Position numbers and translations under genes: made by a program
The notes under the pieces: generated by a model
Seen by the model: the letters and a program-made list of their open reading frames with translations, nothing else
What the model was told of the DNA's origin: nothing
The model's database searches: none
Assembly (NCBI GenBank): GCA_945907755.1
Contig: CAMDTN010000003.1
Coordinates: 57,429-121,428, forward strand
DNA length: 64,000 nt
Source of the DNA: Singulisphaera sp. GP187
GTDB taxonomy: Bacteria; Planctomycetota; GCA-002687715
Reading direction: 5' to 3'
Shown here: positions 40,217 to 56,339 of the stretch, one piece after another
Layout: each line of letters opens with the position of its first letter
Position numbering within the stretch: the first letter of the stretch is position 1

Positions 40217-42355
40217 TCAGGCAGGGCTCGGGATGACGCGGCGCGGCGGCGCAGCAGAGCGGGCTGGGGCGACAGGTGCAACTTGCTCCGCAGCTTGGAT
40301 TTGCACTACGCCAACGGCGTCCACTCCAGGGGCGGAAACCACTTCGCCATAGGACAGCACCGGGATGGGCGGTTTCAGGTGCGCGAACAAACCGGCCAGA
40401 TGGCGGCGCAGCGGTGCGCGCACCACCAACACAGGGTCGCGGCCTGAAGCTTGCGCTTCGGCGTAGCGCGCGAGCACGGCGTCTTGCAGTTGTTGCAAGC
40501 CAACGGCACCAAGGCCGGAGCCATCGCCATGGAATGCCTCCAGCAGCATCTGCTCGGTCTGCGGCGCCACCGTGATGGCTTCGATGCGTCCACCCGTGCG
40601 TCCGTGGATCTCGCAAAGTGTGCGGGCGATGCGCGCGCGCACCAGTTCGGTCAACTGGTCTGCGTCCTTCACGGTCTTGCCGTGGTCGGCGAGCACTTCC
40701 AACACCTGCGCCAACTGCCGGATTGGCACGCGCTCTTTCAACAGCCCAGCGAGCACGCGCTGCACCTGGCCCACATTCATGATGTCGGGAATGAGCTCCG
40801 CCACCACGGTGGGGTTGGATTCCTTCACGCGGTCCACCATGCTCTGCGCATCTTCGCGCGACAAGATTTCGTGCGCGTGATCCTTGATGATTTCGGTGAG
40901 GTGTGTGACGAGGACGGATTCCGGGTCGACCACCGTGTAGCCCATCAGTTCGGCGTCGCTCTTGCGCGACACAGGAATCCATGTTGCTGGCAGCCCGAAG
41001 GTTGGGTCCTTCGTATTGATGCCTTGCAGTTTCTCGCGCACATGGCCTGGATTCATGGCCAGTACATGTTCGGGATACAACTCGCCACGGCCCACTTCTT
41101 GGCCGCCAACGAGCACTCGGTAACGGTTGGGCTCCAGCACCAAGTTGTCGCGCATGCGGATGGGCGGCACCACAAAGCCATGCTGCTGTGCGAATTGCTT
41201 GCGCACCATCGCGATGTGGTCCAGCAAGTTGCCGCGGCGCTGTTCGTTCACCAGCGGGATCAAGCGGTAGCCGATCTCGATGCCCATGCGATCGACTTTC
41301 AACAAGTCTTGCAGTGCTTCCGGCGTGAGCTCGGCGGCGTTTTCAGGTTCCGGTTTTTCTTCAACAGGCTTGGGCGCAGCGGCAGCCTTCATGGCCTTGT
41401 CTGCGTAGCTCGCAACAAAGAACAAGCAACCGGAAAGCAGCACGAAAGGCAGCAGCGGCATGCCGGGCACTAATCCCACCAACAGTGTCAAGGTGGCGGC
41501 GAGGCGCATGGCTGCGGGGTGCAGCAAGAATTGGTCCACCATTTCCACGGAGAGCTTTTCTTTGGTGCGCGCCTTGGTCACCAGCAAACCCGAAGCGATG
41601 GAAATCAGCAGCGCGGGGATCTGCGTCACCAAGCCGTCACCGATGGTGAGAATGGCGTACTTGTGCAGCGCATCCATGATGCCCATGTCTTTGGAGATAC
41701 CGAGGCCCACGCCGCCCAAGATGTTGACAGCGATGATGATCAACCCGGCAACCGCGTCGCCGCGCACGAATTTTCCGGCACCGTCCATGGCGCCGTAGAA
41801 CTCTGCTTCGGCGCTCACCGCTTCGCGCCGGCTGCGCGCAGTGGCTTCGTCGATCAAACCGGCGTTCAAATCGGCATCAATGGCCATCTGCTTGCCGGGC
41901 ATGGCGTCCAACGTGAAACGCGCGGCCACTTCGCTGATGCGGTTACTACCTTTGGTGATCACGACGAATTGCACGACCATCAGAATCATGAAGATCACGG
42001 CACCGATGAGCAGGTTGCCGCCCACCACGAAATCGCCGAAGGCTTGAATCACTTCGCCGGCGTTGCCCTTCATCAGGATCAAACGCGTGCTGGCCACATT
42101 CAAAGCCAAGCGGAACAGCGTCAGGAACAGCAACAATGAAGGGAAGGTGCTGAACTCCAGCGGCTGCTTCAGCGTCAGCGTCATCAGCAGCACCATCAGC
42201 GATGCCGCGAGGTTGAAGGTGATGGCCAAGTCCAACAGGAACTGCGGTAGCGGCACCAGTAACACGAACAACAGCACGATCATCCCCAGTGCCAGCAGCT
42301 TGTCTGCATGGCGGGTGATCGGCAGTGGACCGGTAGGAAGTGGGGCGGTGCTCAT
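40217..42355 (-). CDS. flhA: Flagellar export protein FlhA
   Basis: LGMIVLLFVLLVPLPQFLLDLAITFNLAASLMVLLMTLTL, FHIPEP-type DAMPGKQMAIDADLNAGLIDEATARSRR. Confidence 0.98.
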   Translation of the reverse strand: MSTAPLPTGPLPITRHADKLLALGMIVLLFVLLVPLPQFLLDLAITFNLAASLMVLLMTLTLKQPLEFSTFPSLLLFLTLFRLALNVASTRLILMKGNAGEVIQAFGDFVVGGNLLIGAVIFMILMVVQFVVITKGSNRISEVAARFTLDAMPGKQMAIDADLNAGLIDEATARSRREAVSAEAEFYGAMDGAGKFVRGDAVAGLIIIAVNILGGVGLGISKDMGIMDALHKYAILTIGDGLVTQIPALLISIASGLLVTKARTKEKLSVEMVDQFLLHPAAMRLAATLTLLVGLVPGMPLLPFVLLSGCLFFVASYADKAMKAAAAPKPVEEKPEPENAAELTPEALQDLLKVDRMGIEIGYRLIPLVNEQRRGNLLDHIAMVRKQFAQQHGFVVPPIRMRDNLVLEPNRYRVLVGGQEVGRGELYPEHVLAMNPGHVREKLQGINTKDPTFGLPATWIPVSRKSDAELMGYTVVDPESVLVTHLTEIIKDHAHEILSREDAQSMVDRVKESNPTVVAELIPDIMNVGQVQRVLAGLLKERVPIRQLAQVLEVLADHGKTVKDADQLTELVRARIARTLCEIHGRTGGRIEAITVAPQTEQMLLEAFHGDGSGLGAVGLQQLQDAVLARYAEAQASGRDPVLVVRAPLRRHLAGLFAHLKPPIPVLSYGEVVSAPGVDAVGVVQIQAAEQVAPVAPARSAAPPRRVIPSPA

Positions 42356-43443
42356 GAGGCGGCTCCGGCAGCAGAGCGGCGCGCTCCGTGCTTGCGATTG
42401 CGATAGACCCACGCGAGGACTTTGGCCACGGCGCGGAAGAGTTCTTCAGGGATGGTGCGACCGACTTTCACGCTGCGGTAAAGCTGACGGGCCAGTGGCG
42501 GTTCACTTTTCACCGGCACGCCTGCGCGTGTGGCGATGTCAACGATTTTGAGGGCCATGAAATCCATGCCCTTGGCTACGACGCGCGGCGCGTTGTCTTT
42601 GCCGTTCTCGTAGCGCAACGCAACGGCATAGTGCGTCGGATTGCGCACGACCACAGTGGCCTTCTTCACATCTTCGAACATGCGACTGCGCGCCATCTGG
42701 CGCTGGATCTGACGGATGCGGGCTTTGATCTTCGGGTCGCCATCAGATTGCCGGTGCTCTTCTTTGACCTCTTCCTTGGTCATCATCATGTCTTTGGCGT
42801 GGCGGAAGCGCTGCCAAAACACATCGATGAGCGCCAGCGCCAACATGAAGGCCGCGGTGCGCAGCCCAAGATCCAGCGTGGTTTCAGCGACAAATGCTGC
42901 TTGTGCGCCCAGGCCGCACTCCGAGGCGTAGCGCGCATCCATCAACAAAGTGTCCAGTGCTGACCAGCACACACCCACCAACGCGGCGCACTTCACCATC
43001 GAAATGGCCACCGACATGATGCTGCGCGTTGAAAACAAGCGCTTGAATCCAGTGATCGGATTCAGCTTGTTCATGTCCGGCTGCACGCGCTCCATGTTGA
43101 AAGAGAAACCCACTTGCATGTGGGCTGCGACCAGCGAAGCGGCCACCACAGTCAGCAGCAGCGGCATCAGAATCATGATGCCTGTGCCGAAACTGTCGGC
43201 CAGCACGCTGCCAATGTTGGTTGGGTTCACGGAACGGAATGCTTGCAACGAGAAGGCTCGTTCGAACAGTGCGCTCAATTCTGCGGCCGCATTGCCGCCG
43301 CCCATTTTCATGGCCCAGAGCACCAACAGCAGCAACAGCGCGCCGCCGAGTTCCCGCGAATACGCAATCTGCCCCTTCTGTGCGGCGTCTTCCAAGCGCT
43401 TGAAGGTGGCGTCCTCTGTCCGTTCTTGTGCGCTGTCGCTCAT
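42352..43443 (-). CDS. flhB: Flagellar export protein FlhB
   Basis: QERTEDATFKRLEDAAQKGQIAYSREL; autocleavage-type VVRNPTHYAVALRYENGKDNAPRVVAKG. Confidence 0.97.
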   Translation of the reverse strand: MSDSAQERTEDATFKRLEDAAQKGQIAYSRELGGALLLLLVLWAMKMGGGNAAAELSALFERAFSLQAFRSVNPTNIGSVLADSFGTGIMILMPLLLTVVAASLVAAHMQVGFSFNMERVQPDMNKLNPITGFKRLFSTRSIMSVAISMVKCAALVGVCWSALDTLLMDARYASECGLGAQAAFVAETTLDLGLRTAAFMLALALIDVFWQRFRHAKDMMMTKEEVKEEHRQSDGDPKIKARIRQIQRQMARSRMFEDVKKATVVVRNPTHYAVALRYENGKDNAPRVVAKGMDFMALKIVDIATRAGVPVKSEPPLARQLYRSVKVGRTIPEELFRAVAKVLAWVYRNRKHGARRSAAGAAS

Positions 43444-44234
43444 TAGGAAGCGCCTCCGGCGAAGGTCATCAATTGTTCGCCTGCGCGATCGAGGAACACT
43501 CCGAAGCTGGTCGAGAAATCTGGCAGGAACAGGAACATCAGGCCAAAGCCGGCCAACAAGCGGATGGGATAGCTCGCTTCCAACACGTGCAGCGCGGGGG
43601 CCACTTTGGCAAGCAGCGCGATGCACGCGGTAACGATCATCAGAATCAGCAACGCAGGCCCCGCCATGCGGAATGCTGCGGTCACCATGTCGCTACTGAA
43701 GGCCATCAAGCCGTCGATGAGGCTCTCGGTGAAAACGAACGAGCCCGGAGGCACATGTTCGTACGAATGCAGCAGCGCGGCCAACACCAACTTGTGCCCG
43801 CCGGCGCAGAAGAACAGCACGAAGGACAGCGACTGCCACAGATTGGCCACGGGCGTTTGCGACGCCTTGGTCATCGGGTCCAACTGCGAGGCCATGTTCA
43901 ATCCCATTTCGCTGGCCACGAGCCCGCCCGCTGTGCGCACGGCTTCAAACACCAAGGACATGGTGAAGCCGAGCAGCAATCCGAACAGAACTTCGCGCAT
44001 CACCAACAGCGTGGCATTAAACACATCTTGCGGCAGAGGAGGGGCCTCCATGTCCGCCCGCGCAGCGGCGGCAGAGAAACCCAGCACCGATGCCAAGCCC
44101 AGTTTCACGAAGCGCGCGCCAGCGCCCTGACCAAACACCGGCAGCACCCAGAAAATGGCCAACGCCCGCAGCACATGCAGCAGCGGGCCAGCCAGTAGGC
44201 GTTCGAGTTCAGTGTTGGTGACAGGTAAATCCAC
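43443..44234 (-). CDS. fliR: Flagellar export protein FliR
   Basis: Multi-TM; EVLFGLLLGFTMSLVFEAVRTAGGLVASEMGLNMASQLDP. Confidence 0.93.
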   Translation of the reverse strand: MDLPVTNTELERLLAGPLLHVLRALAIFWVLPVFGQGAGARFVKLGLASVLGFSAAAARADMEAPPLPQDVFNATLLVMREVLFGLLLGFTMSLVFEAVRTAGGLVASEMGLNMASQLDPMTKASQTPVANLWQSLSFVLFFCAGGHKLVLAALLHSYEHVPPGSFVFTESLIDGLMAFSSDMVTAAFRMAGPALLILMIVTACIALLAKVAPALHVLEASYPIRLLAGFGLMFLFLPDFSTSFGVFLDRAGEQLMTFAGGAS

Positions 44235-44241
44235 AGCGGCC

Positions 44242-44505
44242 TTACAGCGTGCTCATTTGCGCGAAGGTCGCGCGTGTGAAGCCCAAGATGGTTTCGATCA
44301 TCCAAGGCATCAGCAGCACCAGAGTCAGTGCCACTGCGAGCATCTTGGGAATCTGCGACAGCGTTTGCTCTTGCACCGATGTTGCGGCTTGCACGATGGC
44401 GACCACCAACCCCACCACCAGCCCGACGATCAGCACCGGCGCCGCTAGCAGCATCGTCGTCCACAAAGTTTCGCGGGCAATGCCCACTACAGATTCAGGG
44501 GTCAT
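44242..44505 (-). CDS. fliQ: Flagellar export protein FliQ
   Basis: ESVVGIARETLWTTMLLAAPVLIVGLVVGLVVAIVQAATSVQEQTLSQIPKMLAVAL. Confidence 0.97.
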   Translation of the reverse strand: MTPESVVGIARETLWTTMLLAAPVLIVGLVVGLVVAIVQAATSVQEQTLSQIPKMLAVALTLVLLMPWMIETILGFTRATFAQMSTL

Positions 44506-44516
44506 GGTTGTGCCTT

Positions 44517-45338
44517 TCAGCTTTGGAAGCTCACGAACAACGAGCGCACCACCAAATCCCAGCCGTCCACCAGGACGAACAACAAGATCTTGAAGGGCGT
44601 GGAGATAATCACGGGTGGCAACATGAACATGCCCATGCTGAGCAGCACGCTGGCCACCACCAGATCCACAATCAGGAAGGGCAGATAGACGAGGAAGCCC
44701 ATTTGGAATGCGGTGCGCAATTCGGACAGCGCGTAGGCGGGGATGAGGATGCGCAGCGGCAAATCGTTGGCCGTTTCTGGCACTGGCGTTTGCGTCAGCT
44801 CGACCATCATCAGCAAGTCTTCGTCGCGCGTTTGCGCGGACAGAAACTGCGCCAGCTCGTTGCCCGCTAAGTCTGTGGCCACCGAGAGTTTCATTTCCTT
44901 GGCCAAGTAGGGCTGCAGCGCTTTGTCGTTCACCGCTTGAATCACGGGGTTCATGATCACGAGGGTCAAGAAGAATGAGATTCCCAGCAGTACTTGATTG
45001 GGCGGTAGTTCGGGCACGCTCAAGGCGCGGCGCACGAAGGACAGCACGATGATGATGCGCGTGAAGCAAGTCACGGTCATCAACAGCGCGGGCGCCAAGG
45101 CCAGCAATGTCAGCACCAGTGCGATTTGCACCGGAGGCGACAGGTCGTCCAGCACATCGCCGCCCGTGCCGAGAGCATCGGCGGCTTCCATCATGGCGCT
45201 CAGTGGCGCGGGCGCGCTCGGATCGGCGCTAACGGCAGCGCTTGGTGTGGGTGTGGCGGTGCTGGCTGGAATGCCGGCTTCTTGCGCAGTTGCAAAGGCA
45301 CAGCACAGCAGCAATGTTGCGAGGATGCGTGGCATCAT
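44517..45338 (-). CDS. fliP: Flagellar export protein FliP
   Basis: QIALVLTLLALAPALLMTVTCFTRIIIVLSFVRRALSVPELPPNQVLLGISFFLTL. Confidence 0.97.
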   Translation of the reverse strand: MMPRILATLLLCCAFATAQEAGIPASTATPTPSAAVSADPSAPAPLSAMMEAADALGTGGDVLDDLSPPVQIALVLTLLALAPALLMTVTCFTRIIIVLSFVRRALSVPELPPNQVLLGISFFLTLVIMNPVIQAVNDKALQPYLAKEMKLSVATDLAGNELAQFLSAQTRDEDLLMMVELTQTPVPETANDLPLRILIPAYALSELRTAFQMGFLVYLPFLIVDLVVASVLLSMGMFMLPPVIISTPFKILLFVLVDGWDLVVRSLFVSFQS

Positions 45339-45340
45339 GT

Positions 45341-46093
45341 TCAGGCCTCCAGTTCCACGCTTTGTTCGCGTTCGAGTAAATGACGGAATGCGGCGGGCAC
45401 GCGCTCGGGACGGCCTGCCGCGCGGGTGACGCGCACTGCTGCCTGCGCGGTCACGACGGCTTCGGCATCGGGCACCGGCGCTGAAGCAATGCGCTCGGCT
45501 ACGGCGGCTGCAACCGGCGCGGTTTGAACGGTCTGCACTGCCTCGGGAGCGCTGCCCAGTTCGTCAACGGTGTAGTCCGCGATCAAGTTCACGCCTTCGC
45601 CACCTGATGCAATCAGCAGCGTGCGGCCTTCGAAGGCCACCACATACAGCGCCTTCTTCGGGCCCAGCGAGAGCACATCTTGCAGCTTCAGTTGTTGCTT
45701 GCGGCTGGCTGGCAGCATGCGCGCTTTGCGCATGAACTTGGCGGCCAGGAACAGCGCGCCCACCAATCCGCCTAATAGCGCGATACCAATGACCAGCGCC
45801 TGCACCGGCGAAGTGCCCGATTCCGAAGCCGCCGCTTTTGCGGTGGGCTTGGGGAATGCACGCGGTGTTGGCGCTGCCGTTGTCGGTGTTGCCGTGGTCT
45901 GCGTTGCCACGGCGGCATTGGTTTGGGGCGCCACAATTGCGCGCGGTGCGGCGGGCTCGTTCATGTTGCGCATGACGAGCGTGACGCCGAACAGCAACAG
46001 CGCCATCGCGCCGAAACCCAGCAACAGTTTGGGCACAGCACCGCGCAGAGCAATGCGGCTGGCGATGCGATTTGTAAAAGCTGGCATGTCCAT
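45341..46093 (-). CDS. fliO: FliO-like flagellar biosynthetic protein
   Basis: TM then RMLPASRKQQLKLQDVLSLGPKKALYVVAFEGRTLLIASGGEGVNLIADY; directly upstream of fliP. Start may be ATG 46087, which has the better SD spacing. Confidence 0.85.
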   Translation of the reverse strand: MDMPAFTNRIASRIALRGAVPKLLLGFGAMALLLFGVTLVMRNMNEPAAPRAIVAPQTNAAVATQTTATPTTAAPTPRAFPKPTAKAAASESGTSPVQALVIGIALLGGLVGALFLAAKFMRKARMLPASRKQQLKLQDVLSLGPKKALYVVAFEGRTLLIASGGEGVNLIADYTVDELGSAPEAVQTVQTAPVAAAVAERIASAPVPDAEAVVTAQAAVRVTRAAGRPERVPAAFRHLLEREQSVELEA

Positions 46094-46107
46094 GCCCTCC
46101 CGTGTGA

Positions 46108-46122
46108 GCAAGCCCTGTGCCA
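46108..46122 (-). promoter_or_regulatory. Sigma-54-like promoter candidate upstream of fliO
   Basis: Minus strand TGGCACAGGGCTTGC, 10/11 to TGGCACG-N4-TTGC; predicted TSS falls near the SD, which weakens the call. Confidence 0.35.
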
Positions 46123-46329
46123 CGGCAAGTTTTTCCTGCCCCTGCCGCATTTCGCAACACTCGCAGCGGGCCGCGCACTTGGGGAGGCGCAGCGGTCGAC
46201 GAAGTGTGAGCCCCCTCTGTCGCGAAGTTGGGCAGTGTTGCGTCTTGCGACGCTGGGCTGTGCTGCGTCGCGCTTTGCGTCACTGCTGCCGATTCAAGTG
46301 TGCTTCGCTCTCTGGTCGATGAAGCCGCA

Positions 46330-46518
46330 ATGTCGGGCTCCAAAGCAGCACAGCGCCACTGGATCGGCGTGCTCTTCGAATGCTGCGGTGTTTACTCGCG
46401 CCTCTGGCGCACCGACGCGCAGCAGGAGTATCGCGGTGCTTGTCCGCGGTGCACGCGTTCGGTTCGCTTAGTGGTTGCGCCCGGCGGCTCCGACGCCCGC
46501 ATCTTCCGCGCTAGCTGA
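46330..46518 (+). CDS. Small putative zinc-ribbon protein (62 aa)
   Basis: HWIGVLFECCGVYSRLWRTDAQQEYRGACPRCTRSVRLVVAPGGSDARIFRAS; four clustered Cys; overlaps the convergent kinase stop by 8 bp. Confidence 0.5.
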   Translation: MSGSKAAQRHWIGVLFECCGVYSRLWRTDAQQEYRGACPRCTRSVRLVVAPGGSDARIFRAS

Positions 46519-49500
46519 GCCGTTCCCATGGGATGTAGGGCGGAATCAGCGCCAAGTCCACTGGGCTGAGCCCTGCGCGCAAGCAACGCCACACGGGGCG
46601 GTGATACAAGGGCAACACAATTGCTTCGCGAGACAGCAGCGCTTCGAATTCCTCGTACAGCTCGCGGCGGGCCAACGCGTCGGCTTCAGAGCGTGCTGCG
46701 GTCAGCAGGCGTTCTATTTCAGGGTTGTTCACAAACGGTGACAGCAAGCCGCTGCCTGGCAAGAACAGTCCGTGCGCAAAACTGTCGGGGTCTGGGAACT
46801 CGGCCAGCCAACGCCCCAACACCAAATCAGCACTGCCCTCATGCAACAAACGGAAGAAGTCTCTGGCGCTGGGTTCGACCAAACGCACGCGCACTCCTTG
46901 GGCACGCAAAGCGCCGAACAATGCAGCCGCCACTCCACGTAATTGTCCGTCGGGCAGCGGGGCCACTAACGCCGACAGTTCTTGTTGCAGCAAGATTTCG
47001 GGCACTTCGTCGACCTCTACCGGGGGAGGCACTTGTTGCGGCACCGCACCAGCCATGCCTGGCGGGATGATGCCGAACGCACGCACTGCGCGGCGCGGAA
47101 TGATTTGCGTGAGCACTCCGGGCAATGACACCATGCGCATCAAACTGCGGCGCGCTGCACTGCTTGCCAGCGGGCCACTGCGAGAATTTGCTGTCAAGAA
47201 CACCGTATTCAATCCGGGAACTTCGTGGAAACCGGCAGATGTCGCTGCATTGGTGCGCAGCGCTTCAGCATCGGTGGCGCCTAAGTTCGACACCATCGCC
47301 CACGCGCCACTGCGAAAACCTTCGAGTGCATCTTGCGCGCGCACGCCGAAGCGGAACTCCAAGGCCTGCACGCCGGGGACATCGCGGCGCCAACCTGTGT
47401 GAGCAGCAAGTTCCAACATGCGTCCGGCTTCCCACGCACGCACGCGGAAGGGGCCCGTGCCGATGGGCATGTAATTGCGACTAGGCGCCACTGTGAGTTC
47501 CGGCAGGATTGCCGTGGAGATGTGGGTCAGCAGCACCGGGAAATGCGGCACCGGTTGCGACAATTCCACAACGAGTTCGTGATCCGAAAGCAATTGCAAT
47601 CCGGCCAGTGCGCGTTGGCGCCCTTGCATGCACTCGTGTGCGCCGCGCACAACATCCAGAATGCAGCCGCTGTCCTTTGACGCGCTGAGCAGGCGCTCGA
47701 AACTGGCGCGCACATCGCGGGTAGTCAATTCGCGCCCGTCATGAAAGCGCACATCTTCGCGCAACTTGATGCGCCAGCGCAACGCGCCCGCTTCGGGTTC
47801 GACGCTGCGTGCCAAGTGTGCGCCCACTGAAGAGCCCCAATGCACTCGCGTGAGCGTGTCGTAGATGCAAGGCAACACCTCCAAGGCGGCGAGGCCGTGG
47901 GCCACGGCGGGGTCCAGGGAAGCGAGTTTTTGCGGCAGCGGCACAGCGATGCGCCCGCTGCGGCGCCGCACCAGTGTTGAAGACGATTCTTCCGCAGCTT
48001 TCCAAGCGAGGCTGTAGTCCAGCGTGCTGCCGCGCAAGCGCAAGCCGCGCACCGTGGCGCCGGACACGATCAGGGTGCTGCCATGGAACAGTGGGGCCAC
48101 GAACGCGTCGCGTCGCAATGCGTCTTCGAAAGCGGCATAGGAACGACTGCGCTCGCCGGCGTCGTGCAAACTGCGCCCTTGCTTGATGTGCGCATCCAGT
48201 TCTTTGCTGCCGCACCAGGCGCGCAACAGTCCGCGCTGCGAATCGAAAAGGCTGCCTGCGAATGTGTCCGGGTCGTCGTGGTCGGCCACCCAACGGCGCA
48301 GCACCAGATCGAATCGCTTGGGCGATTCCATCGCGCTCAAGTAGCCCGCCATGTCGCGCGTGCCCACATGCACTTCAAAGCCGGCGGCCTTCCATTGCGC
48401 CAGCAACCCTTCCAGTAGCGGCCGGTGTTGGTCTAACCACAAAGGGTGAACTGCTGCGCGAAGTTGCAGCGGCACGGCGACACCGTTGTCGATCAACTGG
48501 CGGCGCACAGTGGCTGGGTCGAGAGTAAAAGTTCGGCGGTTTTGGTCGAAGCCCAGAAACCCCGGCGGCAAGATGCCTCCGGCGGGCAACATCTTGCCGC
48601 TGGGCACACCACTTTGCAGCGCACTGACATCCGTGGCCGCGAGGAAATTGCGGCGCAATTCTGCATCGGCGAAGGCGCCACTGTTGGCGCGCAGCACCAC
48701 AAACCAAGTTGAACGATCGCTGCTCTCCAGCGTGCGCACGCCCAAACGCGGATGGGTGAGCACACCCGCGAGGTCTGCCGCGGACAACTCGCGCACCACA
48801 TCCAAGCGGTTGGACTTCAAGCCTTGCGCCATGCTGGCCGACGCCATGCCCGGGCGAAACTCCAGCGCATCCAAGAGCGGTTTCTGTTCGCCCCAGTGTC
48901 CATCGAAGCGCATCAAACGCACCAACGCTGGTTCCCACGATGCAATTTGAAAGCGCCCGGTTCCAGTGAATCCCTGCCCGTTTGCACTGGGCAGCGCGAT
49001 GCCAAGATCTGGTCCGGCCAACAGCGCAGGCAAGATGGGCAGCGGTTCCTTCAGCGTGATCTGCACGACATCTGCCGAAGGTGCGTGAATGCAATTGTGC
49101 TCAAGCGCGCCCAGTTCCGCGCGAATCCAGCCATCAGAATTCGCGATGGCGTGCTCTAACGAGGTTTTGACTGCGGCGGCATCCAGCACACGGCCGTCAT
49201 GAAAACGCACTCCAGAGCGCACCATGATTTCGTAGCGCAGGCCGTCGGCCGACACCGCAAAGCCGAGTGCGAGGTTGGGGGCCACGCGCCCGTGATCGCC
49301 CGGCAAGAACAACGTCTCGTGAATGTGCGAAAGCACTTCAGTGTTGTCACGCGTGCGTGCATGGGCTGGGTCTTGCGCGAGGTCCGGCGACGACAATGCC
49401 ACCGTGAGCGTTCCACCAGTCCGCGATTCTTCGGCGTTCTCTGCACTGGCGGCCGTTGCGGCAGTGCCGCGCAAGATGGCGAGGTTCGATGCCAAGCGTT

Positions 49501-52000
49501 CCAGCCTCGCCGCAAGGCCAATGACCTTCTCGTGCGCAGCTTGTGCCAACGCAGCGCGCCCCCGTGCCACAGCGGCTTCGACATCTTCCATGCGCCGCAA
49601 CACGAACGCACTTTCGGCGCGCAAGAGTTCTGCTTCCGCTCGTGTTTCCGGAGGTCCTGAGGCCACCAAGCGCACGCAATCCTGCGCCGCTTCGTAGGCA
49701 GCGGTGTCGTCGCCATCCGCATGGGCGGAACGCGCCAGCAGCAACAGTGCGCGCGTCTTGCGCGTGTCGTCGCCATGCAGTGCGGCAGTGCTCACCAGCG
49801 CTTGGGCCGCCCTGCGTGCACTTGCTGCGTGGCCAAGGCGCAGTTCCGATTCGGCAAAATGTTCTGCGCGCCGCAACAGCACGCCGGTGGCTTGGCCTGC
49901 GATGGCGTGTTCCACCACCAACGCGAGTGTCGCGGTGCTGGGTTCACCGGCGCGGGCATCCAACTGCTCTGCGGCACGCAGATGAATCAGGCGGCGGCGG
50001 CGCAGCGGCAGCCCTGCGGCCAGCACCGAGCGCATCACCGACGAAGGCATCACTAACCACTCTTCGCCATCGCGGGTGATCTCTTGCAAGTGGCCGCGGT
50101 CAATCAAAGGTGCCAGCGTGCGGTCGGTAGGCTCCGCCCCCAACACAGCACTTAGCGTTTCCAGTGGAAAGTCGTGCCCCAGAACGGCCGCTGCTTGCAG
50201 CAATTCGCGTGCGTCATCGGGCAAGTCGCTGATGCGTTGCTCCACCACATGCCGAACGCTCAACGGCCAGTCTTGTGGCGCGACGCCGGTGCTGGCCACG
50301 AAATGGCCGGCAGCGTTGCGCACCAATGCGCTGGATTCGAGTTGCGTGCGAAGGATTTCGAGCGTGAAGAACGGATTGCCATCGGTGACCGCATACAGCT
50401 TCTCGACAAAGCCATCGTCTTCCATGCTGCCGCCGAGAAACCCTTCGACCAGCAGGCGAAAACTGCCGCGGTCCAGCGGCCCTAGACGCAACGCGCTGAA
50501 ATGTTCTTTGCCCGCGAATGCTGCTTGCAGGCGCGCCGCAAGAGCGCGCGGATCGCGGCCGCTCTCGATGACAGACACGACGAAGAGGACCGGCAGGTGG
50601 GCCAGCCGCAACATCAAGTTGCTAAAGAGTTCGGTGGGCACCGCTGCGGTGTGGCAGTCGTCCAAGTGCAGCACCATCGGCATGCCTGCCAGCGCGAAGA
50701 GGCGTCCGAGCGCTTCGGCCAGTGGTACAGGTGTGCTGCCGCCCGCCCATGTGGGCCCCGTGCCGCTTTCGGATTCGCCAGTGTCCGACCAATCCAGCGA
50801 TGGCAGTGCCGCGCGCAGCGTCGGCCTCAGCGCGCGCAGTTGTGCTTCGGCTTGCGGGCGCAAGCTGTGCAATTCAATGGTGAAGTTGCGCACCAATTGT
50901 GCCCATGCGGCTTCAGCATCACCGCTGAAGCGCGTTTCTACGAACAGTGCGCGGCGAGTGCGCACTTGCTCGGCGAACTCTGAAACCAAGCGCGAGCGCC
51001 CCGTGCCAGGATCGCCGCTGAGTAAACACAGTTGCGCGTTGCTTGTACAAGCACTGTCGAAAGCGGCGGCGAGCGCGGTGTATTCCTTTTCGCGCCCAAC
51101 GAACACACCCAGTGCTTGCGTGTCGTTGGCTTGTTTTTGCGGGCGTTTGAGCAACTGAGACGACAGCGCGTCGCCGCTGAGCCGCTGCTGCGCGGCGCGC
51201 AAGCCAGAAGCAATCAGTGCAGCGTGGGCTGGGCGGTCTTCCTTGCGCTTGGCGAGGCACGCGAGGATCAGTTGTTCCAATTCGTGGTCGAGGCTTAGGC
51301 CCGAGCGTGCAAACGAGCGCGGCACTTCGTGCAAGATGCGATGCAGCACAGCATCTTGTTCGCCGCGGAAGGGTGGGCGCCCCAAGATGGACTCATACAG
51401 CAGCACACCCAGCGCGTACAAGTCTGCGGACGCATCCACTTCTTCGCCGCGCACCTGTTCGGGGGACAGGTAAGCCAATGTGCCGATCATGAAGCCGCTG
51501 CGCGTGATGTGCGCGTCGCCGCGGCTGCGAGCAAGGCCGAAGTCCATAACGCGCGCGCGCAGGCGGCCGCCCTCTTCGCGCGACACCATGACATTGCCGG
51601 GTTTCAAATCGCGGTGCAGCACGCCGTGGGCATGGCAATAGGCAACGGCCTCTGCTACTTGCACGCCGGTTTCCAAAACATCGCCGAGGGCGAGGTCGCC
51701 GTTCTTCACATGGTCGCGCAGGGTGGTTCCTGGCAGCAGCGGCATCACAAACCACACGCCTTCGTCGTCGCGCCCTAAGTCGTGCACGGGCACGATGCCG
51801 GGATGGTCCATGCGGGCCACCGTGCGCGCTTCGCGCAACACGCGCTCTTCGGCTTCAGGAGTGAGCGTTGAGCGCGGCACGATCTTCACAGCGACATCGC
51901 GTTCCAACAGTAGGTCGCGCGCGGCGTACACCACGCCCATGCCGCCTCGGCCAAGCTCCGAGACCACGCGATATCTACCTTGTAGGGTCCTGCCAATCAT
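46511..52000 (-). CDS. Ser/Thr protein kinase - AAA_16-like ATPase - TPR-like - tandem SBP_bac_5 fusion protein
   Basis: Kinase: GRGGMGVVY, DVAVKIV, HRDLKPGNVMV, MDFGLARS, YLSPEQ. ATPase: LLSGDPGTGRSRLVSEF and VLHLDDCH. SBP1 from GGTLTVALSSPDLAQDP (aa ~862) with RYEIMVRSGVRFHDGRVLDA; SBP2 from aa ~1347 with LRWRIKLREDVRFHDGRELTTRDVRASFERLL and LPLYHRPVWRCLRAGLSPVDLALIPPYIPW. Confidence 0.9.
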   Translation of the reverse strand: MIGRTLQGRYRVVSELGRGGMGVVYAARDLLLERDVAVKIVPRSTLTPEAEERVLREARTVARMDHPGIVPVHDLGRDDEGVWFVMPLLPGTTLRDHVKNGDLALGDVLETGVQVAEAVAYCHAHGVLHRDLKPGNVMVSREEGGRLRARVMDFGLARSRGDAHITRSGFMIGTLAYLSPEQVRGEEVDASADLYALGVLLYESILGRPPFRGEQDAVLHRILHEVPRSFARSGLSLDHELEQLILACLAKRKEDRPAHAALIASGLRAAQQRLSGDALSSQLLKRPQKQANDTQALGVFVGREKEYTALAAAFDSACTSNAQLCLLSGDPGTGRSRLVSEFAEQVRTRRALFVETRFSGDAEAAWAQLVRNFTIELHSLRPQAEAQLRALRPTLRAALPSLDWSDTGESESGTGPTWAGGSTPVPLAEALGRLFALAGMPMVLHLDDCHTAAVPTELFSNLMLRLAHLPVLFVVSVIESGRDPRALAARLQAAFAGKEHFSALRLGPLDRGSFRLLVEGFLGGSMEDDGFVEKLYAVTDGNPFFTLEILRTQLESSALVRNAAGHFVASTGVAPQDWPLSVRHVVEQRISDLPDDARELLQAAAVLGHDFPLETLSAVLGAEPTDRTLAPLIDRGHLQEITRDGEEWLVMPSSVMRSVLAAGLPLRRRRLIHLRAAEQLDARAGEPSTATLALVVEHAIAGQATGVLLRRAEHFAESELRLGHAASARRAAQALVSTAALHGDDTRKTRALLLLARSAHADGDDTAAYEAAQDCVRLVASGPPETRAEAELLRAESAFVLRRMEDVEAAVARGRAALAQAAHEKVIGLAARLERLASNLAILRGTAATAASAENAEESRTGGTLTVALSSPDLAQDPAHARTRDNTEVLSHIHETLFLPGDHGRVAPNLALGFAVSADGLRYEIMVRSGVRFHDGRVLDAAAVKTSLEHAIANSDGWIRAELGALEHNCIHAPSADVVQITLKEPLPILPALLAGPDLGIALPSANGQGFTGTGRFQIASWEPALVRLMRFDGHWGEQKPLLDALEFRPGMASASMAQGLKSNRLDVVRELSAADLAGVLTHPRLGVRTLESSDRSTWFVVLRANSGAFADAELRRNFLAATDVSALQSGVPSGKMLPAGGILPPGFLGFDQNRRTFTLDPATVRRQLIDNGVAVPLQLRAAVHPLWLDQHRPLLEGLLAQWKAAGFEVHVGTRDMAGYLSAMESPKRFDLVLRRWVADHDDPDTFAGSLFDSQRGLLRAWCGSKELDAHIKQGRSLHDAGERSRSYAAFEDALRRDAFVAPLFHGSTLIVSGATVRGLRLRGSTLDYSLAWKAAEESSSTLVRRRSGRIAVPLPQKLASLDPAVAHGLAALEVLPCIYDTLTRVHWGSSVGAHLARSVEPEAGALRWRIKLREDVRFHDGRELTTRDVRASFERLLSASKDSGCILDVVRGAHECMQGRQRALAGLQLLSDHELVVELSQPVPHFPVLLTHISTAILPELTVAPSRNYMPIGTGPFRVRAWEAGRMLELAAHTGWRRDVPGVQALEFRFGVRAQDALEGFRSGAWAMVSNLGATDAEALRTNAATSAGFHEVPGLNTVFLTANSRSGPLASSAARRSLMRMVSLPGVLTQIIPRRAVRAFGIIPPGMAGAVPQQVPPPVEVDEVPEILLQQELSALVAPLPDGQLRGVAAALFGALRAQGVRVRLVEPSARDFFRLLHEGSADLVLGRWLAEFPDPDSFAHGLFLPGSGLLSPFVNNPEIERLLTAARSEADALARRELYEEFEALLSREAIVLPLYHRPVWRCLRAGLSPVDLALIPPYIPWERLS

Positions 52001-52081
52001 GGTTTTGCCGTGGCGTCATCGTCCCCGTTGTTGCGCGGGCATGTCAAGTAGGCCCGAACCAGTGGCTGCGGCGGACAAAGG

Positions 52082-53980
52082 CTACAAATCCAGCGCGACG
52101 ACACTTTCCGCACGGTTCATCACAAAATCGAAGCGCGCCGAGGCATCGCGGCCCATCAGTTCGGAAATGGTTTTCTCCGCGGCCAACGGCTCGGTGATTT
52201 CCACTCGCAGCAAGCGGCGCTGCGCTGGGTCCAGCGTGGTCTCCCACAGCGTCTCTGCCGGCATTTCACCGAGGCCTTTGAAGCGCGTGATCTCGGCCTT
52301 GCCGCGATGCTTCGCAAGGATGCGGTCGCGGTCGGCGTCGTCGGCGGCCCAGTGAGTTTCGCGCCCAATGTTCACGCGGTACAGCGGCGGTTGCGCAATG
52401 AACAAGCGCCCGTTGCGGATCAGTGCCGGAAGCATGCGATAAAAAAAGGTGAGCAGCAGTGTGGTGATGTGATGCCCATCGCTGTCGGCGTCGGCCAACA
52501 AGATGACGCGCCCATAGCGCAGCTTCTCGAGGTCGAAGTGTTCGCCGATGCCGCAGCCGAGTGCAGTCACAAGATCGCAGAGCTCTTTGTTCTCCATCGC
52601 TTTCTTGGGCGTCAAGCCTTCGACATTCAGCACCTTGCCGCGCAAGGGCAAGATGGCTTGATTGGTGCGGTCGCGGCCTTGCTTGGCCGATCCACCAGCG
52701 CTGTCGCCTTCCACCAAGAACAATTCGGTGTCGACGCCATCGGTGCTGATGCAATCGCTGAGCTTGCCTGGCAAGTTCAGCCGATGGCGCGCCGAAGTCT
52801 TGCGCTTCACCTCCGCCGAAGCCGCGCGACTGGCCGCACGCGCCCGCGCTGCCAAGATGATGCGCGCGACGATGGTTTCCGCCGTGCTGCGGTTGTGGTT
52901 CAGCCAATGTTCCAAGTCTTGGCGCACACGGCCTTCCACCACAGCCTGCACTTCCGTGTTGTTCAGACGGTCTTTGGTTTGGCCTTGGAATTGCGGCTCT
53001 TCCACGAACAAAGAGAGAATGACGGTGATGCCCTCGCGGATGTCTTCGGCCGTCAGTTCCACGCCGCGTGGCAGCATGTTGTGCGTTTCAATGACATTGC
53101 GCAGTGCCTTCAACAAGGCCGAGCGCAAACCGTTTTCGTGGGTGCCGCCGCTGCCAGTGGGAATGCCGTTCACATAACTGCGCACAGATTCAGCGGTGGA
53201 TTCGGTCCACACCAGTGCGACTTCCATGCGCGGGTCGGATTCAGAACGCAGCAAGAACGGCTCGGCATGCACCGCCACCGCTTTGCTTTCTGCCAACAGC
53301 TTCTTCAGATAGTCGGCCAAGCCTTCTGCGTGCTCGAACTTCTCGTCGCTGCCGCTGCCTTCGTTGATGCACCGGAAGGTAACGCCGCGGTGCAAATAGC
53401 TGGCGACTTCCATGCGCTCGCGCAGAAGCGCCGCATCGAAGCGCGTGTCTTTGAAAATCTCTGGGTCGGCGCGGAAGGCAATGGTGGTTCCGGTGCCGCG
53501 TGCGGGGCCGGCTTGTTGCAGCTTGCCCTTGGGCTTGCCGCGACAAAACTCCATCTCCCACGCCATGCTCTCGCGCTTCACACGCACATGCAGCCATTCC
53601 GACAAGGCATTCACCACACTCGCGCCCACGCCATGCAAGCCGCCCGAAGTGCGGTACGAATTGCGCTCGAACTTGCCGCCGCTGTGCAGCGTGCACAGGA
53701 TGGTCTCCACCGCGCTTTTCCCCGTCTTCGGGTGTGCATCCACAGGGATACCGCGGCCGTCGTCGCTGACAGTGACAGTGCGTTGGTCCTTCGACAGCGT
53801 CAGCGTGATGGACTGCGCGTGGCCATTCATGGCCTCGTCGATGGAGTTGTCAAGAATTTCCCAGGCCAAGTGATGCAGCCCCGTGCGATCAATCCCGCCG
53901 ATGTACATGCTGGGCCGCTTGCGCACTGGCTCAAGGCCTTCCAACACGGCAATGTCTTTGGCGCTGTAATCACTGGCCAT
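52082..53980 (-). CDS. parE: Type IIA topoisomerase ATPase subunit (ParE/GyrB)
   Basis: LEPVRKRPSMYIGGIDRTGLHHLAWEILDNSIDEAMNGHA; VEGDSAGGSAKQGRDRTNQAILPLRGKVLNVE; LADADSDGHHITTLLLTFF. ParE versus GyrB not resolved by eye. Confidence 0.85.
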   Translation of the reverse strand: MASDYSAKDIAVLEGLEPVRKRPSMYIGGIDRTGLHHLAWEILDNSIDEAMNGHAQSITLTLSKDQRTVTVSDDGRGIPVDAHPKTGKSAVETILCTLHSGGKFERNSYRTSGGLHGVGASVVNALSEWLHVRVKRESMAWEMEFCRGKPKGKLQQAGPARGTGTTIAFRADPEIFKDTRFDAALLRERMEVASYLHRGVTFRCINEGSGSDEKFEHAEGLADYLKKLLAESKAVAVHAEPFLLRSESDPRMEVALVWTESTAESVRSYVNGIPTGSGGTHENGLRSALLKALRNVIETHNMLPRGVELTAEDIREGITVILSLFVEEPQFQGQTKDRLNNTEVQAVVEGRVRQDLEHWLNHNRSTAETIVARIILAARARAASRAASAEVKRKTSARHRLNLPGKLSDCISTDGVDTELFLVEGDSAGGSAKQGRDRTNQAILPLRGKVLNVEGLTPKKAMENKELCDLVTALGCGIGEHFDLEKLRYGRVILLADADSDGHHITTLLLTFFYRMLPALIRNGRLFIAQPPLYRVNIGRETHWAADDADRDRILAKHRGKAEITRFKGLGEMPAETLWETTLDPAQRRLLRVEITEPLAAEKTISELMGRDASARFDFVMNRAESVVALDL

Positions 53981-53981
53981 T

Positions 53982-56339
53982 TCAGTTGCCCTCCCCAGTG
54001 CGTGGTGCTTCGCGCACGACGCTGGTGAACCCGCCGGTCTTCATCAACTCTCTGCCCGCGCCACCGCGTCCGGTGGGCGTGTACTTCGCAGAGCTGATGG
54101 TTTGCTCTGCACCGCGCGTGGTTTGCACGCGCATCAGATCGCGCTCGCCGCGGCTGGCCATGAAGCCCAGCACCACATCGTCATCACCGAGTTTGATGTA
54201 GATGACGCCTTTGCCAGGCCCGGCCAAGAAGGCCACTTCGGATGCAGGTGCCAGCAGCGCGCGCCCGCCCTTGGTGGCGGCGATGACGATTTCCGAACCG
54301 TCAATCAATTCCACGCCCAAGACTTTCGCCGCAGCAGCGGGCTTCATGAAGCGACGGCCACTGCGCGTGCTGGGTTCGGTAAATCCGCCCAGCGGAAAGC
54401 GCACGGAGTAACCATCGCTGGTGAGCGCGAGCCCATGACGCGGCGGTTCCGTGTCGGCACCCGGCGCGCCGATGTCGCCGCACTGCGTTGCGTCCAGCGA
54501 CAGCGCCGCCACGATGCGTTCGCCATCGTCCAGCTTGAAAAACTTCTGCACCGGTTCGCCGTGGCCGCTGCTGGCAGGCATGTCTGCGATGCGCGCGGTG
54601 TAGCAAGTGCCGCGGTCGCTGAAAAACGCCACGGTGGCCCGAGTGCTGCCAAGCACCACTGCAAGAATCTCGTCGCCTTGGCGCAGGCGCGTCTTCCCAA
54701 GGTCTTTCACTTCGCGTTGGCGTTTCACCCAGCCGTCGCGCGTCAGCAACACCACCGCTTCTTCATCCACGATGAAGTCTTCGGCCTTCAGCTCGGGCTC
54801 TTCTTCGGCGGTTTCGATGAGCGTGCGGCGCACGCACAACGGGTCTTGCTTCCATTTCTCGGCCAGCGCTTCCAGCTCGCCGCGCACCAGTTTCCAGCGC
54901 GCTGCGGTGTCGCCTAAGAGTTTCTTCACGGCCTTGGCGCGCGACCACTTGGCATCCAACTCTTCGCGGATGACCAAGATTTCCAAACGCGCAAGGCGGT
55001 ACAGGCGCAGTTCCAAAATGGCGTCGGTTTGCAATTCGTCGAGGCCGAAACGCTTCATGATCTGCTGCGCGGAGTCTGCCTTGCCTTCGGACTTGCGGAT
55101 GATCTTCAAGATCTCGTCCAAGGCGTCGAACACTTTCTCTAAGCCCTGCAACACATGCAGGCGCGTTTCCAGCGCGCGCAGTTCGTCTTGCAACTTGCGC
55201 GTTTGCACTTCCAAGCGGAAATCCAAGAAGTGCCCCAGCACTTCGCGCAGCCCGATGCGTTCGGGACGGCAAACATCTGCCTTCGAAGTTGGGATCAAAC
55301 AAGTCAGGTTCACGCTGAAATTGGTTTGTAGCGGGGTGTGCTTGAACAGCCACGCCATGACCATGGAAGTGTCCGCCTCGCGGCGCAGTTCCAGTTCGAT
55401 GCGCACATCGTCGGCGGACAAGTCGCGCACATCCAACAATTGCGGCAGCTTCTTGGTGGCCACCACTTCTGCGATGGTCTCCACCAGAGTGCTCTTGTTC
55501 ACGCAGTAGGGGATGGAAGTGATGATGACGGTTTTCGAGCCGCGAGTTTCTTCACCCTCTTCGTGGATGGCGCGCACTTTCAGCGAGCCGCTGCCGGTGC
55601 GCACGATTTCGCGCCATTCCTCGGCGCTGTTCAGCACCCAGCCTCCAGTGGGGAAGTCTGGGCCGCGAATGATTTTCGCCAGTTGGGCCGGCGTGATGTC
55701 GCGATCATCCAACATTTTCAGGGTGCCGCGCAGCACTTCCAGCGGGTTGTGCGGAGGAATGCTGGTGGCCATGCCCACCGCGATGCCAGTGCAACCATTC
55801 ACCAACAGATTGGGAAAGCTCGCAGGCAGCACCACTGGTTCTTCGCGCGTGGCGTCGTAGTTGGCGCGCTTCGGCACAGTGTCTTGCGACAGTTCATCGA
55901 GCAGCCCGCCGGCAGGCGCGGCCAAGCGGCATTCCGTGTAGCGCATGGCAGCGGCAGAGTCGCCATCGAGGCTGCCGAAATTGCCGTGGCCATCCACCAG
56001 CGGCAGGCGTAACGAAAAATCCTGCGCGAGACGCACCAGCGCTTCATAAATGGCATCGCCACCGTGCGGGTGGTAGTTGCCCATGACATCGCCAACGATT
56101 TTCGAACACTTGCGCGGCTTGGCCTTTGAGTCCAAGCCTTGTTCGTGCATGGTGTGCAGAATGCGCCGCTGCACGGGCTTCAAGCCGTCACGCACATCCG
56201 GCAACGCGCGCGCGGTGATGACGCTGAGCGCGTAGTTCAGGTAGCGCTCTTCCGTCGCCGTGTGCAGCGCAACGGTTTGCACGCCGCCTTCACGGAACAG
56301 CCCGTCTTGCTGATCCGCTGCCTTCTTCTTCCTAGCCAC
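53982..56339 (-). CDS. parC: Type IIA topoisomerase DNA-cleavage subunit (ParC/GyrA)
   Basis: [87 protein letters not shown]. Confidence 0.87.

Follow-up and report, generated by a model that had tools for sequence, protein, structure and literature searches.

A Probable STAND-Type Ser/Thr Kinase Variant with Tandem Peptide-Type Solute-Binding Modules in Planctomycetota

The Gene and Its Domain Content

The window, i.e., the whole stretch of 64,000 nucleotides that was analyzed, carries a long gene whose product joins a protein kinase, a nucleotide-binding domain, a TPR-like region, and two solute-binding modules in one chain (Table 1). A preliminary description of this DNA had reported an uninterrupted 1829-aa open reading frame here. 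The coordinates proved correct, and the gene lies on the minus strand, with an ATG start at 52000 and a stop at 46511–46513; the plus strand across the same interval contains many stops. The contig around the gene measures 121 kb and belongs to a genome of 2.68 Mb that is 97% complete. A sigma-70 promoter scan found no sites. The order of Pkinase, AAA_16, TPR-like, and two SBP_bac_5 domains read earlier was recovered by Pfam, a fold model, and matches to solved structures, and Pkinase, AAA_16, and SBP_bac_5 each score above their own Pfam cut-off. The dN/dS ratio against L009 is 0.09–0.16 in every domain, which indicates purifying selection, although the values are rough because dS is 1.0–1.4. 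Together, the domain scores and dN/dS rule out a shadow or chance frame.

Table 1. Features of the kinase gene, listed from the N-terminus to the C-terminus of the protein.
Feature	Residues	Position in window	Strand	Basis
Complete gene; STAND-like Ser/Thr kinase, tandem SBP_bac_5 modules	1829 aa	46511..52000	-	ORF, Pfam, homologues
Protein kinase domain, PknB-like	10–262	51215..51973	-	Pfam Pkinase 4.4e-47; PknB structures 6.9e-47; alignment
AAA_16/STAND-like nucleotide-binding domain	300–474	50579..51103	-	Pfam 2.8e-17
Walker A GDPGTGRS, Lys replaced by Arg	329–336	50993..51016	-	Alignment
Helical/winged-helix-like and TPR-like region	481–860	49421..50560	-	Fold model; PDB matches (TPR proteins, STAND PH0952/6mfv)
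SBP_bac_5 module 1	862–1327	48020..49417	-	Pfam best stretch; solved GsiB/YliB and DppA homologues
Asp1240, module 1 equivalent of OppA Asp419 (peptide alpha-amino anchor)	1240	48281..48283	-	Alignment
SBP_bac_5 module 2	1336–1829	46514..47995	-	Second Pfam stretch; solved OppA match
Glu1734, acidic module 2 equivalent of OppA Asp419	1734	46799..46801	-	Alignment

The kinase domain has the features of the Hanks-type (PknB-like) group, namely the VAxK lysine, HRDxKPxN, DFG, and an APE-type motif. In the alignment, K39, HRDLKPGN (129–136), and DFG (153–155) are intact, and SPE occupies the APE-type position at residues 179–181. All six family members described below retain the catalytic residues, in line with the earlier view that the kinase appears catalytically intact. 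Nine further kinase-bearing loci occur in the same genome, with similarity confined to the kinase domain.

Distribution and Gene Neighborhood

Six proteins with the same domain order were found in five Planctomycetota genomes, at 31–81% identity. The succession of kinase, AAA domain, helical region, and two SBP modules is given by Pfam in three relatives and by alignment in all six. A Planctomycetota MAG recovered from Lake Baikal and publicly available encodes a homologue with 80.8% identity, and the protein is present in all three sampled genomes of the genus. A fourth genome, from another genus of the same family, carries a homologue at 35%, and two copies at 32% occur in a genome from a different class of the phylum. 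The identical order in independent MAGs rules out an assembly chimera and, with the purifying selection, marks a single genuine gene rather than separate genes joined during assembly.

The fused form is rare. It occurs in 5 of the 393 sampled Planctomycetota genomes; a sixth listed genome holds a stand-alone SBP only. A profile search centered on another class added no further fused cases. Beyond Planctomycetota, the search was a single contig pattern scan, which detects close relatives only. Among plasmids, 2791 records matched, none of which covered 80% of the query. Five of these matches were opened, and four are ordinary transport SBPs. The fifth, a Leptolinea plasmid protein (L054 1305–4799), is a fusion of a different kind, with a Peptidase_MA domain joined to SBP_bac_5.

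At 40217–56339 of the window, the genes run on one strand as parC-parE-[kinase gene]-fliO-fliP-fliR-flhB-flhA, and within the genus this whole order is conserved over the reach of the contigs. In more distant relatives the neighbors differ and include enolase and MoxR/BatA genes in some, a POT-family transporter together with a hybrid histidine kinase in others. Because the gene order is lost in these relatives, the context points to no firm functional partner. The POT-family gene (L039 2927–4540) adjoins a distant homologue in a single case. With parE and fliO on either side, the gene does not belong to a transport operon. Another contig of the same genome carries an Opp-type operon (L047 2218–9802, G000:C8) with two SBPs, two permeases, and a double ABC ATPase. 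The two SBP_bac_5 genes of this operon are divergent, and one of them forms a long tree branch and lacks the usual GW motif.

A Common Chassis

A STAND NTPase is expected to have an AAA/NOD core with a P-loop, an acidic Walker B, and a GxP motif, followed by a winged helix and a sensor made of repeats, with an effector at one end of the chain. In the alignment, the AAA domain contains VGRE, LHLDD, and TDGNP motifs. Its Walker A lysine is replaced by arginine (GDPGTGRSR) in all three genus members, the window protein included; the lysine is kept in 8/8 parsed relatives of the kinase-AAA-TPR type, and the distant homologue L039 has a lysine at the Walker A Ser/Thr position. Because of the arginine, an ATP-driven switch or multimerization is doubtful in the genus, where the NTPase may be in decay. 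Even with the altered Walker A motif, conformational control by a ligand could operate.

The helical stretch that follows had been called TPR-like from the sequence. Pfam gives no repeat match there, yet the predicted fold agrees with the assignment. A two-sequence AlphaFold model contains paired helices in the manner of TPR hairpins at residues ~703–850, with pLDDT mostly 75–90; the rest of the middle-region model is of low confidence, and the winged helix lacks a confident model. In a Foldseek search, the middle-region model matched TPR proteins, and PH0952, whose STAND architecture includes a TPR sensor, ranked fourth as a weak match with a low TM-score.

A profile of the AAA-TPR middle matches 124 of 296 Planctomycetota genomes. 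Six such proteins were opened, and four of them combine a kinase, AAA_16, and TPR, including one that adds GAF and a sigma-54 activator and one that matches only part of the kinase profile. Of the other two, one has a redoxin and a cyclase in place of the kinase, and one is without a kinase in the ORF taken. The C-termini on the kinase-AAA-TPR part vary across the phylum. STAND Ser/Thr kinases are a recognized bacterial class, and STAND proteins place the sensor after the switch core, with an inducer setting off multimerization (PMC6468293). The combination of kinase, AAA_16, and TPR is thus widespread in Planctomycetota as a STAND-type chassis, which the present protein appears to share, and its novelty lies in the putative sensor.

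Two Complete Solute-Binding Modules, Probably inside the Cell

The two SBP_bac_5 modules of the preliminary description are both complete. Pfam detects two stretches, with a whole-protein E-value of 4.5e-84 and 283 bits against a gathering cut-off of 32.4, and the best stretch (residues 906–1255) covers profile positions 2–364 of 368. Both modules align nearly full length with solved SBPs, and their closest solved homologues are mostly peptide-type. For module 2, the matches are OppA, aligned over residues ~1361–1802, and a murein-peptide binding protein. An AlphaFold model of the tandem, built from the window and L009 rows, reached a pLDDT of 31.

The absence of a signal peptide and of a transmembrane segment, claimed earlier, was borne out by a hydropathy scan. 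The highest 19-residue mean of the protein is 1.71 and lies inside the AAA domain. In the hydropathy scan of all six family members, no N-terminal signal peptide is visible and no stretch long and hydrophobic enough for a clear membrane helix lies between the kinase and the SBPs, and a membrane receptor Ser/Thr kinase is rejected on this basis. Since no membrane or signal segment was found, the SBP modules should share the presumed cytosolic location of the N-terminal kinase. The lack of such segments and the neighbors parE and fliO also argue against an SBP of ABC transport.

In a maximum-likelihood tree of 28 SBP domains, the six first modules form one clade and the six second modules another, and the two clades are sisters (99/96). 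Both stand apart from OppA, DppA, NikA, SgrR, and the SBPs of plasmids. They are equally separate from the transport SBPs encoded by the same genomes, and the main representatives of these transport SBPs cluster with OppA. The simplest history suggested by this topology is one capture of an SBP followed by one tandem duplication before the family split, with both copies retained.

A clue to the ligand is a single residue. An acid of the OppA Asp419 type anchors the peptide alpha-amino group in OppA and DppA (PMC9967938, PMC5736914), and a glutamate at this position is regarded as functionally analogous in BbOppA3 (PMC5736914). The position is acidic in all twelve modules of the family, with Asp in every first module and Asp or Glu in every second one, and it is Asn in SgrR and Pro in NikA. 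Beyond this acid and the neighboring Trp, the OppA ligand residues are without a clear counterpart in the modules. The acid is also common among transport SBPs, so it argues for a retained amino-bearing ligand but falls short of proving peptides.

Relation to Known Systems

With the STAND Ser/Thr kinases, whose switch is akin to MalT, AfsR, and PH0952, the protein shares the N-terminal effector, the AAA/NOD-like core with VGRE and GNP motifs, and the TPR-like arm. It differs in its shorter TPR region, which is followed by two full SBP_bac_5 modules, and in the Walker A substitution of the genus. SgrR and DsvR, HTH plus SBP_bac_5 regulators, show SBP_bac_5 in a cytosolic setting, joined to an output domain (PMC13060122). 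SgrR had been named as the nearest logic, and the analogy of a cytosolic SBP-output fusion stands. The relationship does not extend further: the output of SgrR and DsvR is DNA binding through one module, whereas here it is a kinase with two modules, and SgrR lacks the anchor acid and falls on a separate, long branch of the tree. Membership in the SgrR family is ruled out by this branch, by the lack of an HTH match, and by a score of 58 against 476 bits with the SgrR model.

Solute-binding proteins have been linked to Ser/Thr kinases before. A Streptomyces coelicolor Ser/Thr kinase is fused to an extracellular Glu/Gln-type solute-binding protein (Krupa and Srinivasan 2005, PMC1262709); there the binding domain is treated as periplasmic, and the protein is not known to contain AAA, TPR, or tandem modules of family 5. 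In the actinobacterial GlnH-GlnX-PknG system, a periplasmic SBP is coupled to a Ser/Thr kinase via a membrane protein (PMC9769921, PMC6069109). An SBP controls the Ser/Thr kinase there, as is proposed here, and TPR is involved on the kinase side (PMC8546545), but the system consists of three proteins across the membrane, while the present one is a single chain without a membrane segment. In sensor kinases of the BvgS family, tandem Venus-flytrap domains drive a kinase in one chain (PMC5829827). In contrast to the present protein, BvgS is a membrane-spanning histidine kinase with periplasmic flytraps. These flytraps belong to another family than SBP_bac_5. In the open-access literature, supplementary tables aside, no description of a Ser/Thr kinase with SBP_bac_5 modules was found; a census (PMC11032199) may list such proteins without comment. 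The suggestion of an undescribed architecture has to be narrowed. The chassis is known, as is kinase-SBP fusion since 2005, and it is the tandem cytosolic family 5 sensor that was not found described. The protein is real and appears to be a variant of the STAND-type Ser/Thr kinases in which duplicated peptide-type flytraps form the proposed sensor.

Proposed Mechanism and Alternatives

The preliminary description had proposed an intracellular small-molecule sensor that drives Ser/Thr phosphorylation. Its domains and its placement are supported, and a sensor role is the best available reading of the sequence; the protein is probably a one-chain device that answers an internal small molecule, which may be a peptide, by phosphorylating proteins. 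In the mechanism that we favor, the usual C-terminal TPR sensor would have lost part of its length and gained two peptide-type Venus-flytrap modules. One or both of these would close on a small ligand in the cytosol, the likeliest candidate being a short peptide or another free-amino compound. The closure movement would travel along the TPR arm and across the AAA/winged-helix core, where it could relieve autoinhibition or bring protomers together, and the N-terminal kinase would then be activated by trans-autophosphorylation and phosphorylate its targets. The domain content and order, the conservation, the single origin of the tandem, the retained anchor acid, and the lack of a membrane segment are observed; the cytosolic location, the ligand class, the ligand control of the kinase, the multimerization step, and the targets are what we infer. 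Taken as a whole, a STAND-type cytosolic kinase switched by a ligand that closes peptide-type flytraps has slightly better than even chances of being correct. A more specific version, in which OppA-type flytraps make the protein a one-protein cytosolic peptide receptor kinase that senses intracellular or imported peptides, with each module for different ligands, is tentative and rather falls short of an even prospect. The separate Opp-type importer of the same genome could supply such peptides.

It is unlikely that the modules have given up small ligands and form a rigid scaffold or docking surface that brings substrate proteins to the kinase, for instance a transporter subunit or a protein that exposes a peptide. 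The poor match of most OppA ligand residues would suit such a role, and the SBP fold can bind proteins, since SBPs loaded with their ligand attach to receptor domains, some of which belong to Ser/Thr kinases (PMC9602780). However, the anchor acid is kept in 12/12 modules at 31–81% protein identity, and both modules are under purifying selection of about the same strength as the remaining domains.

A non-peptide ligand, e.g., a sugar phosphate, a metal chelate, or another metabolite, as proposed for SgrR or known for NikA, is likewise improbable. Family 5 SBPs do bind diverse ligands, and one cytosolic regulator of this family, SgrR, is linked to glucose-phosphate stress (PMC13060122), but SgrR and NikA are without the acid and do not group with the modules. 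The best NCBIfam SBP match of module 1 is the nickel-SBP model (4.7e-50), yet at 170 bits it is far under the cut-off of 600. Finally, a local controller that meets the Opp complex and phosphorylates according to substrate supply is very improbable, for neither in the window genome nor in its genus is the gene linked to an Opp operon, its place being between parE and fliO, even though the genome encodes such an operon and one relative's gene adjoins the POT-family transporter.

The activators of bacterial Ser/Thr kinases are named as an outstanding question (PMC6069109). Here, a probable ligand-binding domain is part of the same chain as the kinase. The domain belongs to a structural class that has been studied in depth, its anchor residue can be identified, and direct screening for the stimulus is therefore feasible. 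Transport-type flytraps would have been reused inside the cell through capture and duplication; surveys of transport SBPs set such non-transport proteins aside (PMC9602780).

Two further fusions were encountered around the AAA-TPR middle. L094 575–5830 encodes a 1751-aa protein with a kinase, AAA_16, TPR, GAF, a sigma-54 activator, and a Fis HTH, in which the kinase chassis is joined to a transcription activator. L089 991–5613 encodes a 1540-aa protein of AhpC/redoxin, guanylate cyclase, AAA_16, and TPR, and this combination suggests a redox-linked control of the cyclase.
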